A stretch of DNA of 64,000 nt from Jiangella mangrovi (lineage in GTDB: Bacteria; Actinomycetota; Actinomycetes; Jiangellales; Jiangellaceae), in assembly GCF_014204975.1 (NCBI RefSeq), contig NZ_JACHMM010000001.1:310001-374000 (forward strand), given 5' to 3'. The position numbers were made by a program, and so were the translations under genes. The notes under the pieces were generated by a model. That model saw only the letters and a program-made list of their open reading frames with translations, did no database searches and had not been told where the DNA came from. Each line of letters begins with the position of its first letter. The first letter of the stretch is position 1. This document shows positions 24,307 to 29,084 of this stretch, piece after piece.

Positions 24307-25260
24307 GTGGCCACCACCTCTCGGGCCCGCCCGGCCGGACCGACCGCCACCGCGGAACGGGCGCTCGGTCCGGATCTGGCGCGCGGCGTCATGCTGCTGT
24401 TCATCGCGCTGGCGAACACGCACTACTTCCTGCGCGGCGACGGCGGCAGCGGCGGCACCGGCGTCCGCGGCGGCTTCCCCACGGACGGCTCGGCGCTCGA
24501 CTCCGCCGTCACCTGGGTGATCGCCACGTTCGTCGATGGCCGGGCGTTCCCGATGTTCGGCCTGCTCTTCGGCTACGGCGTCGCCCAGCTGGTCCGCCGC
24601 AACGAGGCGCTCGGCCCGCGCGGCGCCCGGCGCCTGCTGTGGCGGCGGGCGCTGGTGCTGGTCGCGGTCGGCTTCCTGCATGCGATCCTGCTCTACGTCG
24701 GCGACATCCTGGCCGCCTACGGCGTGCTGCTGCTCCTCGGCGCCTGGACGGTGCGCTGGCGCAACCGCTGGCTGATCACGCTCGCGGCCGCGTTCTTCGC
24801 GCTCGGGATGCTGCCGTCGGGCGACTCGATGTCGGTCTCGACCGAGCCGCCGGACGCGTCGATGCTGCCACCGGACCTGGTCGCCATGGTCACCGAGCGG
24901 GTGCAGGTGCAGCCGTTCATCATGCTGCTCGGCCCCATCGGCTTCGCCGCCCCGTTCCTCGTCGGACTGGTCGCGGGCCGGGCGCGTGTCCTGGAGCGGC
25001 CCGAGCGGTACCGCCGGCTGCTCACCGTCACCGCGGGCCGCTGCACGACTGGACCGGTGTGCTGGGCGGGTTCGGCTACGCGGCACTGATCACGCTGGTC
25101 GGTGCGCGCCCCTCGAGGACGCGGCCCCGTCGTCACCGCCGACCGGATGCGGGCGACCGGCCGCCGCAGCCCCTTCGAGGTGCTCGTCCGCCGCGTCACC
25201 TACGGGCGCCGGCGGCTCCGGTCGCCGTTCCATGATCATCAAGGATCCACCACACCCTGA
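24307..25260 (+). pseudogene. Decayed DUF418/YeiB-like membrane protein gene
   Basis: The N-terminal 240 residues look normal for DUF418: GPDLARGVMLLFIALANTHYF, FVDGRAFPMFGLLFGYG, RRALVLVAVGFLHAILLYVGDIL. After YRRLLTVTAGR the frame is lost. A piece of the later domain (HDWTGVLGGFGYAALITLVGAR) is read in the third frame around 25050-25110. The first frame then hits TGA at 25087-25089, but downstream it again encodes a DUF418-like end (PFEVLVRRVTYGRRR). Roughly 100 residues between these pieces are also missing. So the gene carries deletions and at least one frameshift. Its last codon falls in the loop of the adjacent repeat hairpin. Confidence 0.75.
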
Positions 25261-25282
25261 TGTGGCGGATCCTTGATGATCA
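25233..25282. repeat. Perfect-stem copy of the GATGATCATCAAGGATC repeat module
   Basis: Arms 25233-25254 and 25261-25282 pair over 22 bp with one mismatch and a 6-nt loop. Each arm carries TGATGATC/GATCATCAAGGATCC, the same core as module B of the composite repeats at 698 and 63441, here doubled head-to-head. It lies between the DUF418 pseudogene and the convergent ECF41 gene and probably acts as a bidirectional terminator. Confidence 0.88.
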
Positions 25283-25318
25283 CGGCGCAGGGGCGGCAGC
25301 GGCCAGGCCGGCGGCTCC

Positions 25319-26245
25319 TCACGACCGAGTATGGTCGGCGCCCCAGCTCCGGAGCTTCTCCGGGTTGCGGACCGCCCAGATCCGGGTGATCCGGTCGCCG
25401 TCGACCTCGAACGCCATGACCGTCGCGGTGACGCCGTCGACCTGCAGCACCAGGCCGGGCCGGCCGTTCACCGTCCGCTCCAGCGCTCGCAGGCCGGGCA
25501 GCGGCGCCGCGACCTCGACGAGGAAGCGGGCGATCGTCTCGGCGCCGTGGACCGGCTCGAGCGCGGCGGGGACCAGCCCGCCGCCGTCGCTGATGGTCGT
25601 CGCGCCGGGGTCGAGCAGCCCGACGAGCGCCTGGATGTCCTTCGCCGCCCAGGCGTCCTTGAAGTCGCGGACCAGCTCGGCATGGCGATCGGCCGGGACG
25701 GCGGGCGCCTGGGTCGCGTCGATCCGGCGGCGGGCCGACGAGGCCAGCTTGCGGCAGGCGGCCGGCGTCCGCCCGACGATCTCGGCCACCTCGGGGAAGG
25801 AGTAGCGGAACACGTCGTGCAGCACGAACGCCACGCGCTCGGCCGGGGTCATGGAGTCGAGGACGACGAGGAAGGCCATGCTGATCGACTCGTCGAGGGT
25901 GACGCGGTCGGCCGGGTCGGCGGCCTCGCTGGTCTCGGTCGGCGGCCGGCCGGTGACCCACTCGGCACGGTCAGGCACCGGCTCGGGGATCCACTCGCCG
26001 ACGTAGCTCTCGCGCCGCGCCCGGGCGGAGCCGAGCTGGTCGAGGCAGATGCGGCCGGCGACGGTGGTCAGCCAGGCGGCGGGGGCGTCGATCGCATCAC
26101 GCTGCGCCTCCGTCATGGCGTACCAGCGCGCGTAGGTCTCCTGGACGACGTCCTCGGCGTCGGTGAGCGAGCCGAGCAGCCGGTAGGCCACGTTGATCAG
26201 CCGGCGCCGCTCGCTCATGATCGCCGTCAGGCTCGGATCGGTCAT
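25319..26245 (-). CDS. ECF41-group sigma factor with fused SnoaL-like C-terminal domain
   Basis: A 308-residue sigma factor. Region 2 is RLINVAYRLLGSLTDAEDVVQETYARW. Region 4 is LDSMTPAERVAFVLHDVFRYSFPEVAEIVGRTPAACRKLASSARRR. The C-terminal NTF2/SnoaL-like domain (about 195-308) has the ECF41 marks DGGGLVPAALEPVHG and WAVRNPEKL. In this group the extension, not an anti-sigma factor, controls activity. It faces the flavin oxidase gene, and both promoters match the ECF41 pattern. GGGAGGAG lies 7 nt before the ATG. Confidence 0.93.
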   Translation of the reverse strand: MTDPSLTAIMSERRRLINVAYRLLGSLTDAEDVVQETYARWYAMTEAQRDAIDAPAAWLTTVAGRICLDQLGSARARRESYVGEWIPEPVPDRAEWVTGRPPTETSEAADPADRVTLDESISMAFLVVLDSMTPAERVAFVLHDVFRYSFPEVAEIVGRTPAACRKLASSARRRIDATQAPAVPADRHAELVRDFKDAWAAKDIQALVGLLDPGATTISDGGGLVPAALEPVHGAETIARFLVEVAAPLPGLRALERTVNGRPGLVLQVDGVTATVMAFEVDGDRITRIWAVRNPEKLRSWGADHTRS

Positions 26246-26268
26246 CGGGCATCTCCTCCCGCACCGAT

Positions 26269-26295
26269 GACGATCGAGCGGGCCGGAGTGTGACG
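26269..26295 (-). promoter_or_regulatory. ECF41-type promoter of the sigma gene
   Basis: Minus strand: CGTCACA (26295-26289), 16 nt, CGTC (26272-26269). Transcription would begin near 26262, leaving a leader of about 17 nt holding GGGAGGAG before ATG 26245. Fits the promoter form TGTCACA-N16-CGTC that I recall for ECF41 sigma factors, with one mismatch. Suggests autoregulation. Confidence 0.72.
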
Positions 26296-26307
26296 TCCGG
26301 CCCGCGG

Positions 26308-26334
26308 AGTCACACTTCGCGCGGCCGCATCGTC
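26308..26334 (+). promoter_or_regulatory. ECF41-type promoter of the flavin oxidase gene
   Basis: Plus strand: AGTCACA (26308-26314), 16 nt, CGTC (26331-26334), with the same spacing as the divergent site. The predicted start near 26341 supports ATG 26380 as the oxidase start, because upstream in-frame codons would overlap the promoter. Confidence 0.72.
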
Positions 26335-26379: not shown

Positions 26380-27759
26380 ATGATCGGCACCAGCATCCAG
26401 CTCTCCCAGCTCCGTTCCGCGACCGGCGGCGCCGTCATCGCGCCCGGCGACGACGACTACGACTCCGCCAGGCGGCTGCTCGCCGGCGGCTTCGACCGGC
26501 GCCCGGCGGTGATCGTGCGGCCGGACGACACTGCCGGGGTGGCCGCCGCCGTCGGCATCGCCCGCGACGGCGGCATCTCCCTCTCCGTGCGCGCCGGCGG
26601 GCACGGCGGCGCCGGCCACGCCGTGATCGACGACGGCCTCGTGGTCGACCTGCGCGGCCTGACCCGGCTCGATGTGGACCTCGAGGGGCGCACCGCGTGG
26701 GCGGGCGGCGGCCTCACAGCGGGCGCCTACACGACGGCGGTCGCCGAGCACGGCCTCGCGACCGGGTTCGGCGACACCGGCTCGGTCGGCATCGGCGGCA
26801 TCACCCTCGGCGGCGGCGTGGGCCACCTCTCCCGGCTGCACGGCCTGACCGTCGACAACCTGCTGGCCGCGGAGGTCGTCACCGCCGACGGCCGGATCCT
26901 GCGGGTGGACGCGGACACCGAGCCGGACCTGTTCTGGGCGCTGCGGGGCGGCGGCGGCAACTTCGGCGTCGTCACCCGGTTCCGGTACCGGCTGCACGAG
27001 CTCCCGTCGGTCGTCGGCGGCCTGCTCCTGCTGCCGGCCACGGCCGAGAACATCGCGGCGTTCGCCGCCGCGGCCGCCGCCGCACCGGACGAGCTCAGCA
27101 CCATCGCCACCGTCATGCCTGCCCCGCCGCTGCCGTTCGTGCCCGAACACCTGCGCGGGCAGCTCGTCATCATGGGCACGCTCTGCTACGCAGGCCCGGA
27201 CGCGGCCGGCCAGCAGGCCGTCGCGCCGTTCCGCGACATCGCCGCGCCGGTGGCCGACCTGGTCCGCCCGATGCCGTACCCGGGCCTGTTCCCGCCGGAC
27301 GACCCGGACATGCCGCGGCCTGTCACGGTCGGCACCACCGGCTACCTCGACCACGTCGACCTCGCGACCGCCGAGACCATCGTCGACCACCTGAGCAGGT
27401 CCGACGCGCCGCTGCGGCTGGTCCAGCTGCGGGTGCTCGGCGGCGCGATCTCGCGGGTGTCGAACGACGCGACCGCCTACGGTCACCGGGCCGCGAACGT
27501 CATGGTCAACGTGGTGTCGATGGTCCTCGGCCCGCAGGACCGCCCGGCCCGGCAGCAGTGGGTCGACGACCTCACCACCGCCCTCGACCAGGGCGTCCCC
27601 GGCTCGTACGTCAACTTCGTCAGCGACGACGGCCCCGAGCACGCCCGCAGCGCCTATCCGCCGGCCACGTGGGACCGGCTGGCGGCGATCAAGGCGGTGT
27701 ACGACCCGGCGAACCTGTTCCGGTCGAACCACAACATCGCGCCGGTCGTCGGCAGCTGA
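26380..27759 (+). CDS. FAD-linked oxidase, berberine-bridge-enzyme type
   Basis: A 459-residue PCMH/BBE flavoprotein. FAD is expected to be covalently bound to His75 in SVRAGGHGGAGHAV. The second covalent site, a Cys in relatives with double linkage, is not present: the motif reads FGDTGSVGIGGITLGGGVG. The C-terminal BBE segment ends YVNFVSD..YPPATWDRLAAIKAVYDPANLFRSNHNI, which is typical. No signal peptide. ECF41 genes usually sit next to an oxidoreductase, decarboxylase or epimerase, and this is the expected target. Substrate unknown: sugars or aromatic compounds are possible. Confidence 0.9.
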   Translation: MIGTSIQLSQLRSATGGAVIAPGDDDYDSARRLLAGGFDRRPAVIVRPDDTAGVAAAVGIARDGGISLSVRAGGHGGAGHAVIDDGLVVDLRGLTRLDVDLEGRTAWAGGGLTAGAYTTAVAEHGLATGFGDTGSVGIGGITLGGGVGHLSRLHGLTVDNLLAAEVVTADGRILRVDADTEPDLFWALRGGGGNFGVVTRFRYRLHELPSVVGGLLLLPATAENIAAFAAAAAAAPDELSTIATVMPAPPLPFVPEHLRGQLVIMGTLCYAGPDAAGQQAVAPFRDIAAPVADLVRPMPYPGLFPPDDPDMPRPVTVGTTGYLDHVDLATAETIVDHLSRSDAPLRLVQLRVLGGAISRVSNDATAYGHRAANVMVNVVSMVLGPQDRPARQQWVDDLTTALDQGVPGSYVNFVSDDGPEHARSAYPPATWDRLAAIKAVYDPANLFRSNHNIAPVVGS

Positions 27760-28520: not shown

Positions 28521-28559
28521 CGTGATGAATCAACCTTTCGCGTGACGATCGGAGTCTCG

Positions 28560-29084
28560 ATGGTGGCGAAGATGCGCGACGTGGCCGAGCGGGCCGGGGT
28601 CTCGCTGAAGACGGTCTCGAACGTGATCAACGACCACCCGAACGTCACTCCGGCCACGCGCACCAAGGTCGAGGCGGCGATCACCGCCCTGGACTACCGG
28701 CCCAACATCACCGCCCGCGCCCTGCGCAGCGGCCGCGTCGGCGTGGTCGCCCTCGCCGTCCCCGACCTCGACTCCCCCTTCTTCGCCGCCCTCGCCGCCG
28801 CCGTCGGCCGGGCCGCGAAACGCCACGACCACGCCGTCCTCGTCGAGCAGACCGACGGCGACCCCGACTCCGAGCGGCTGGCGCTCGACGGCCTGCGCAA
28901 CCGCCTCGTCGACGGCGTCCTCCTGTGGCCGACGGTGGTCACCACCGGCATTGATGGCGCCCGGCCCGTCGTCCTGCTCGGCGGCGGCCCTCCCGGGGCG
29001 GTGACGGCAGGCGCGGACGACCTGGCCCGCGACGCCGTCGGCCTCCTGCTCGCCCGCATCGCCGCCGCGACGATGCGGAACTGA
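28560..29084 (+). CDS. Truncated LacI-family regulator
   Basis: A 174-residue protein. The LacI helix-turn-helix and hinge are complete: MRDVAERAGVSLKTVSNVINDH and YRPNITARALRSG. The ligand domain starts normally (VGVVALAVPDLDSPFFAALAAAV) but stops after VVLLGGG and a short tail, where normal LacI proteins run to about 340 residues. Only the first lobe is partly present, so sugar sensing is doubtful. The stop is clean and codon usage is normal up to the end. ATG at 28560 is 5 nt after GGAG. It might be a remnant or a ligand-blind DNA-binding protein. Confidence 0.75.
   Translation: MVAKMRDVAERAGVSLKTVSNVINDHPNVTPATRTKVEAAITALDYRPNITARALRSGRVGVVALAVPDLDSPFFAALAAAVGRAAKRHDHAVLVEQTDGDPDSERLALDGLRNRLVDGVLLWPTVVTTGIDGARPVVLLGGGPPGAVTAGADDLARDAVGLLLARIAAATMRN

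Follow-up and report, generated by a model that had tools for sequence, protein, structure and literature searches.

A divergent pair of ECF41-type promoters between a SigJ-type sigma factor gene and a flavin oxidase gene, and a match between sigma4 residues and the -35 element

ECF41 sigma factors have been defined by a TGTCACA-n16-CGTC target promoter, a missing anti-sigma gene, and oxidoreductase partners including FAD_binding_4 proteins (Wecke 2012, PMC3426412). The motif often precedes both genes where the ECF41 and oxidoreductase genes are divergent; among 55 divergent loci of the <ECF< >COE> type, the promoter is found on the sigma side in 36 and on the partner side in 41 (PMC3426412). 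The locus described here lies in a window of 64 kb (positions 310001-374000 of a genome of 7,162,500 bases), and is a new instance of the described arrangement, since such divergent loci are reported in that study. As in the loci of Wecke, the sigma factor has a C-terminal extension, the oxidoreductase gene is divergent, and the motif is found at both genes. The first base of the -35 element is different, being T in the published consensus and C or A in the two elements of the window. Taken alone, the locus adds a further ECF41/oxidoreductase pair to those known and has little wider consequence. The features are as follows, where G407 is a relative of the same genus.

25319-26245, minus strand: ECF41 (SigJ-type) sigma factor, 308 aa, with a C-terminal SnoaL_2-like domain (NCBIfam, Pfam, and PDB matches)
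26253-26260, minus strand: ribosome-binding site GGGAGGAG of the sigma gene, predicted from the sequence
26269-26272, minus strand: -10 element CGTC of the sigma promoter (from sequence; same in G407)
26289-26295, minus strand: -35 element CGTCACA of the sigma promoter, 16 bp to the -10 element (GGTCACA in G407)
26296-26307, no strand: inner spacer of 12 bp between the 7-bp -35 elements (14 bp between the GTCACA cores)
26308-26314, plus strand: -35 element AGTCACA of the oxidase promoter, 16 bp to the -10 element (same in G407)
26331-26334, plus strand: -10 element CGTC of the oxidase promoter (from sequence; same in G407)
26380-27759, plus strand: FAD_binding_4/BBE flavin oxidase, 459 aa (Pfam PF01565, E=1.2e-27; PF08031, E=9.9e-10)

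The ECF41 identity of the sigma factor, proposed in the first-pass annotation, is borne out by family models and by structure alignment. The protein scores 310 bits with NCBIfam NF007214 (SigJ subfamily; curated cut-off 271), and Pfam Sigma70_r2 PF04542 and Sigma70_r4_2 PF08281 are above the cut-off, with no further sigma domain above it. Mycobacterium tuberculosis SigJ (PDB 5xe7), which shares the NF007214 model, aligns over its full length with residues 11-298, the C-terminal domain included (E=4.9e-47). The two proteins differ at the two positions that read the -35 element, where SigJ has Q/R and the sigma4 recognition helix of the window sigma has K165 and S169, as judged from the alignment. 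The linker between sigma2 and sigma4 is EWIPEP, one conservative change from the WLPEP motif of ECF41. SnoaL_2 is detected at E=4.8e-5, with 24.3 bits being below the 27-bit cut-off; by analogy with PMC3426412, this domain may regulate the activity of the sigma factor. The core GTCACA-N16-CGTC is exact before the sigma and oxidase genes, and the divergent FAD_binding_4/BBE oxidase falls within the published definition of ECF41 partners. No recognisable anti-sigma gene adjoins the sigma gene, in line with the first-pass annotation, though an anti-sigma factor of an unrecognised type may be present. The other neighbours are a CGNR zinc-finger protein and an ORF at 24307-25089 that has no Pfam match. 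This ORF encodes a membrane-type protein, and its sequence seems to run on in another frame near 25040, a possible frameshift.

The two start codons, that of the sigma gene at 26245 (minus strand) and that of the oxidase gene at 26380 (plus strand), enclose an intergenic gap of 134 bp. GTCACA-N16-CGTC has two exact matches in the 64-kb window, both inside this gap and at the positions noted earlier, with the identical N16 spacing. The match facing the sigma gene (26269-26294, minus strand) is preceded by C to give CGTCACA-N16-CGTC, and that facing the oxidase gene (26309-26334, plus strand) is preceded by A to give AGTCACA-N16-CGTC. The TGTCACA-N16-CGTC consensus given in the first-pass annotation agrees with that in PMC3426412. 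Both matches point outward, with 23 and 45 bp separating them from the respective start codons, and a search for primary-sigma promoters within the gap found none. The oxidase start annotated at 26380 also holds, since the upstream in-frame GTG at 26290 would put the promoter inside the gene and since GAGGACGG is well placed, at a suitable distance upstream of the ATG. Further along the window, a LacI-type regulator ORF of 180 aa (28542-29084) matches the first quarter of the sugar-binding domain and looks truncated.

The number of matches should be noted, since by itself it is weak evidence. Dinucleotide shuffles of the window give 0.40 matches on average, and 6 of 100 shuffled windows reach two or more; in addition, most of the 15 exact matches in the genome are without promoter context. 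The strong evidence is the placement, namely two outward-facing matches in one gap beside an ECF41 gene. Chance matches in GC-rich DNA are a most improbable explanation, opposed by this placement and orientation, by the equal 16-bp spacing, by conservation in G407, and by the co-variation with sigma4 described below.

The same sigma/oxidase pair is found in one relative, G407, among 12 genomes of the genus, where the sigma factor is 89% and the oxidase 86% identical to those of the window. Comparison of the gap, as proposed in the first-pass annotation, shows that both promoters are unchanged in G407, with 20 of 20 element bases and the distance of 14 bp between the cores retained, while the spacer and leader have changed, with differences at 5 of 15 columns in the inner spacer and 14 of 45 in the oxidase leader.

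The gap very probably holds two divergent promoters, both read by the ECF41 sigma factor whose gene lies at its left. The earlier claim that this sigma factor drives both itself and the oxidase is well supported, at the level of sequence, by the motifs, by their conservation in G407, and by the co-variation of residues 165 and 169. In the proposed mechanism, the C-terminal SnoaL-like domain would let the sigma factor bind RNA polymerase on some signal, sigma4 would read NGTCACA and sigma2 would read CGTC 16 bp away on each strand, and the flavin oxidase gene would be switched on together with the sigma gene itself, a positive feedback. Transcription from both promoters and the feedback are what this arrangement predicts.

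The gap is not the only place in the genome that scores. Exact GTCACA-N16-CGTC is found 15 times, against 2 for a reversed control pattern, and 13 of these matches lie outside the gap. Three of the 13 adjoin further ECF41 genes, and another lies upstream of an unlinked flavin oxidase gene; the rest have no convincing promoter context. One match, close to a Glu/Leu dehydrogenase gene, was not retained as a target, since it sits within the coding region. About 11 ECF41 genes are present in the genome, most of them with Q/R at positions 165/169, the type paired with GTCACA.

The match at the unlinked BBE oxidase gene is a perfect TGTCACA-N16-CGTC at 4025593, ending 64 bp before the ATG (locus L012, genome 4025593-4027032; motif at 1500-1526 and gene at 1591-2943 of the locus, the gene being at 4025683-4027032 of the genome). 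This promoter is perfect in 11 of the 12 genomes of the genus and TGTCACG in the twelfth. It is kept though the flanking sequence differs, and in some genomes a different gene seems to lie upstream. Another ECF41 sigma factor probably reads it, because genomes that lack the window sigma have it too. This genus-wide ECF41-type promoter suggests that ECF41 targets are not always adjacent to the sigma gene. The segment 3′ of the window sigma gene (25232-25290) resembles that 3′ of the unlinked oxidase gene (2970-3026 of L012), with an inverted repeat CATGATCATCAAGGATYCACCACA ... GGATCCTTGATGATCA; it is possibly a repeated intergenic palindrome or a terminator without a T run. At another place in the genome (2546026-2548363), a second BBE oxidase gene is convergent to another ECF41 gene; the matched stretch holds one in-frame TAG, and no clear motif is found before this sigma gene.

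These observations bear on the first-pass description of a closed one-sigma, one-enzyme switch, of which the lack of a recognisable adjacent anti-sigma gene and the control of both genes are supported, while the private character of the switch is only partly supported, given about 11 ECF41 paralogues and an ECF41-type promoter at the unlinked BBE oxidase. Other ECF41 sigma factors of the same genome could also read both promoters of the gap. The promoters may be real and yet common to several of these paralogues, forming a node of an overlapping network; the abundance of the Q/R type, the exact promoters beside three other ECF41 genes, and the conserved promoter of the unlinked oxidase all speak for this reading, which we consider a real possibility though not the favoured one. 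It is opposed by the pairing of window-type sigma factors with a first base other than T and a second base other than C, and by the clearly different promoters of the nearest paralogue.

That paralogue (1017152-1018063; 77% identical to the window sigma) is also found in G407, and sigma factors of similar identity occur in most genomes of the genus. It belongs to the same clade as the window sigma and likewise has a divergent double promoter with N16 spacers, as read by eye. In its gap in the window genome, CGTCAGGCCTCACG lies between the two N16 spacers and gives the -35 elements CCTGACG and CCTCACG (also read by eye). In contrast to the window sigma, it has Q165 (with S169) in place of the K165/S169 combination, its cores are 2 bp apart, and its partner is a different, non-oxidase gene (by eye). 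Some, perhaps partial, insulation of the window sigma/promoter pair from the paralogues is plausible, since the sigma factor and the -35 elements of the window depart in parallel from those of the nearest paralogue, and since window-type sigmas avoid T at the first base.

Divergent ECF41 pairs were gathered by a GTDB scan (at least 120 stretches), a class-wide relaxed-motif scan, and a family scan. The 174 sampled loci that have an ECF41 gene at the expected place were retained, and about 160 sigma factors were aligned. Phylum-wide scans gave matches in 6 and 2 of 397 genomes, and scans of families f91 and f16 gave no matches or no further matches. The divergent partners are mostly carboxymuconolactone decarboxylase-like, and others are DoxX-like, flavodoxin-like, MMPL-type, short-chain dehydrogenase, or epimerase proteins, all assigned by eye from the sequence. 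A BBE oxidase partner is found in 2 of the 174 sampled divergent loci among those listed, those of the window and G407.

Residues 165 and 169 (window numbering, recognition helix GRTPAACRKLASSAR) predict the second base of the -35 element at both promoters, in about 160 loci among those listed. Among the listed loci, Q165/R169 is paired with G in 106 of 106 and K165/R169 with G in 11 of 11, whereas Q165/S169 is paired with C at 35 of 35 sigma-side and 34 of 35 partner-side promoters. The rarer combinations among these loci are K/S with G (3) or T (1), R/S with G, K/T with T, and Q/Q with C; Q/T, in a single locus (L246), has mixed bases. C at the second base is never seen with K or R165 combined with S or T169 among the loci listed. 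The first base follows the same division, T being present in 0 of 12 elements for the window type (K/R165 with S/T169) versus 175 of 212 for the Q/R type, again among the loci listed.

Much of this table reflects shared ancestry, with about four independent events. In the tree, the K forms of L219 and L244 lie within the Q/S clade and have T as the second base of their two promoters; at least two of the residue/base shifts are nested and independent. In the open complex of SigH, contacts to the first two -35 bases come from S182 and R186, with R186 contacting position -34 (PMC6411747). By eye, S182 and R186 align with ECF41 residues 165 and 169, and the second base of the ECF41 element falls at -34, counting from CGTC. 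In the window, K165 on the S169 background would match the G at the second base of both -35 elements, and K165 would separate the window sigma from the CCTCACR-reading paralogue. The residue/base matching is the best available evidence, drawn from comparison of loci, that the adjacent sigma factor would read both promoters. The two-residue rule across about 160 loci looks new, and would allow cognate ECF41 sigma/promoter pairs to be assigned in genomes with at least 10 paralogues.

The distance between the two -35 elements should also be noted. In a thinned set of the loci listed, the core-to-core distance falls mainly into three classes, 11-15, 22-26, and 33-37 bp, and few loci lie at 16-21 or 27-32 bp; the 14 bp of the window is in the commonest class (11-15). 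With sigma factors thinned to 0.3 substitutions per site, the three classes hold 28.8, 27.5, and 11.9 clusters versus 5.3 and 4.3 between them (n=89). A 10.5-bp period tested against a smooth envelope gives p below 5e-5 at this thinning (n=89), p=0.024 at 0.6 (n=47), and p=0.19 at 1.0 (n=34). Long distances are under-sampled, because the scans covered distances unequally (5-35 bp in the GTDB scan). The classes are a preference and not a rule, since exceptions are found at 18, 19, 28-31, 40, 43, and 49 bp, and strict 10.5-bp periodicity over long distances is not supported, as 28-31, 40, 43, and 49 bp are also seen. The A/T fraction in the middle of the spacer is 0.57 in the 22-26 class and 0.48 in the 33-37 class, versus 0.20 in the 10-16 class.

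The gap could also be read as a GTGTGAC-N14-GTCACAC inverted repeat serving chiefly as the operator of a dimeric repressor or activator, with the promoter match being secondary. The gap is indeed palindromic, and one group of relatives has abutting -35 elements, TGTGAGGCCTCACA, with a core distance of 2 bp. However, CGTC lies exactly 16 bp downstream of each half (the search pattern demands it, and it is abundantly found beside ECF41 genes), the half-sites are 2 to 58 bp apart beside the same kind of sigma gene, unlike those of an operator, and the consistent neighbour is the ECF41 gene, with no regulator gene consistently present. A dimeric-regulator operator was rejected on the variable distance, and this reading is very unlikely.

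For divergent ECF41 promoters, the spacing classes suggest helical coupling, but their significance fades once the set is thinned to distant sigma factors. This spacing property is apparently unreported. In the window, each polymerase's upstream zone would cover the -35 element of the other promoter, 12 bp apart, and the promoters therefore probably compete or interact. More tentatively, and with doubt, divergent ECF41 promoters might be one composite bidirectional promoter instead of two independent ones, in which the two polymerases, or their alpha or sigma/SnoaL domains, would interact from either side of the gap and the distance would be held to helical classes (also 2 bp in one group). 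If the spacing rule is true, divergent ECF41 promoters would work as a unit.

The longer spacing classes often hold a shared A/T-rich centre. Loci of Massilia and Paraburkholderia (L047, L057, L062, L069, L097, and similar) have spacers of 22-25 bp with A/T runs, for example AATATTTTT, which are UP-element-like. In family f90, a group of loci (L260-L268, L270, L272, L277, L281, and L284) has a core distance of 35-37 bp and a third conserved element, TGTGA, within the spacer, about 16 bp from the partner-side -35 element. Two other loci of this family, L274 and L269, have additional CCTCACA copies within the spacer, apparently from recent duplication of the -35 element.
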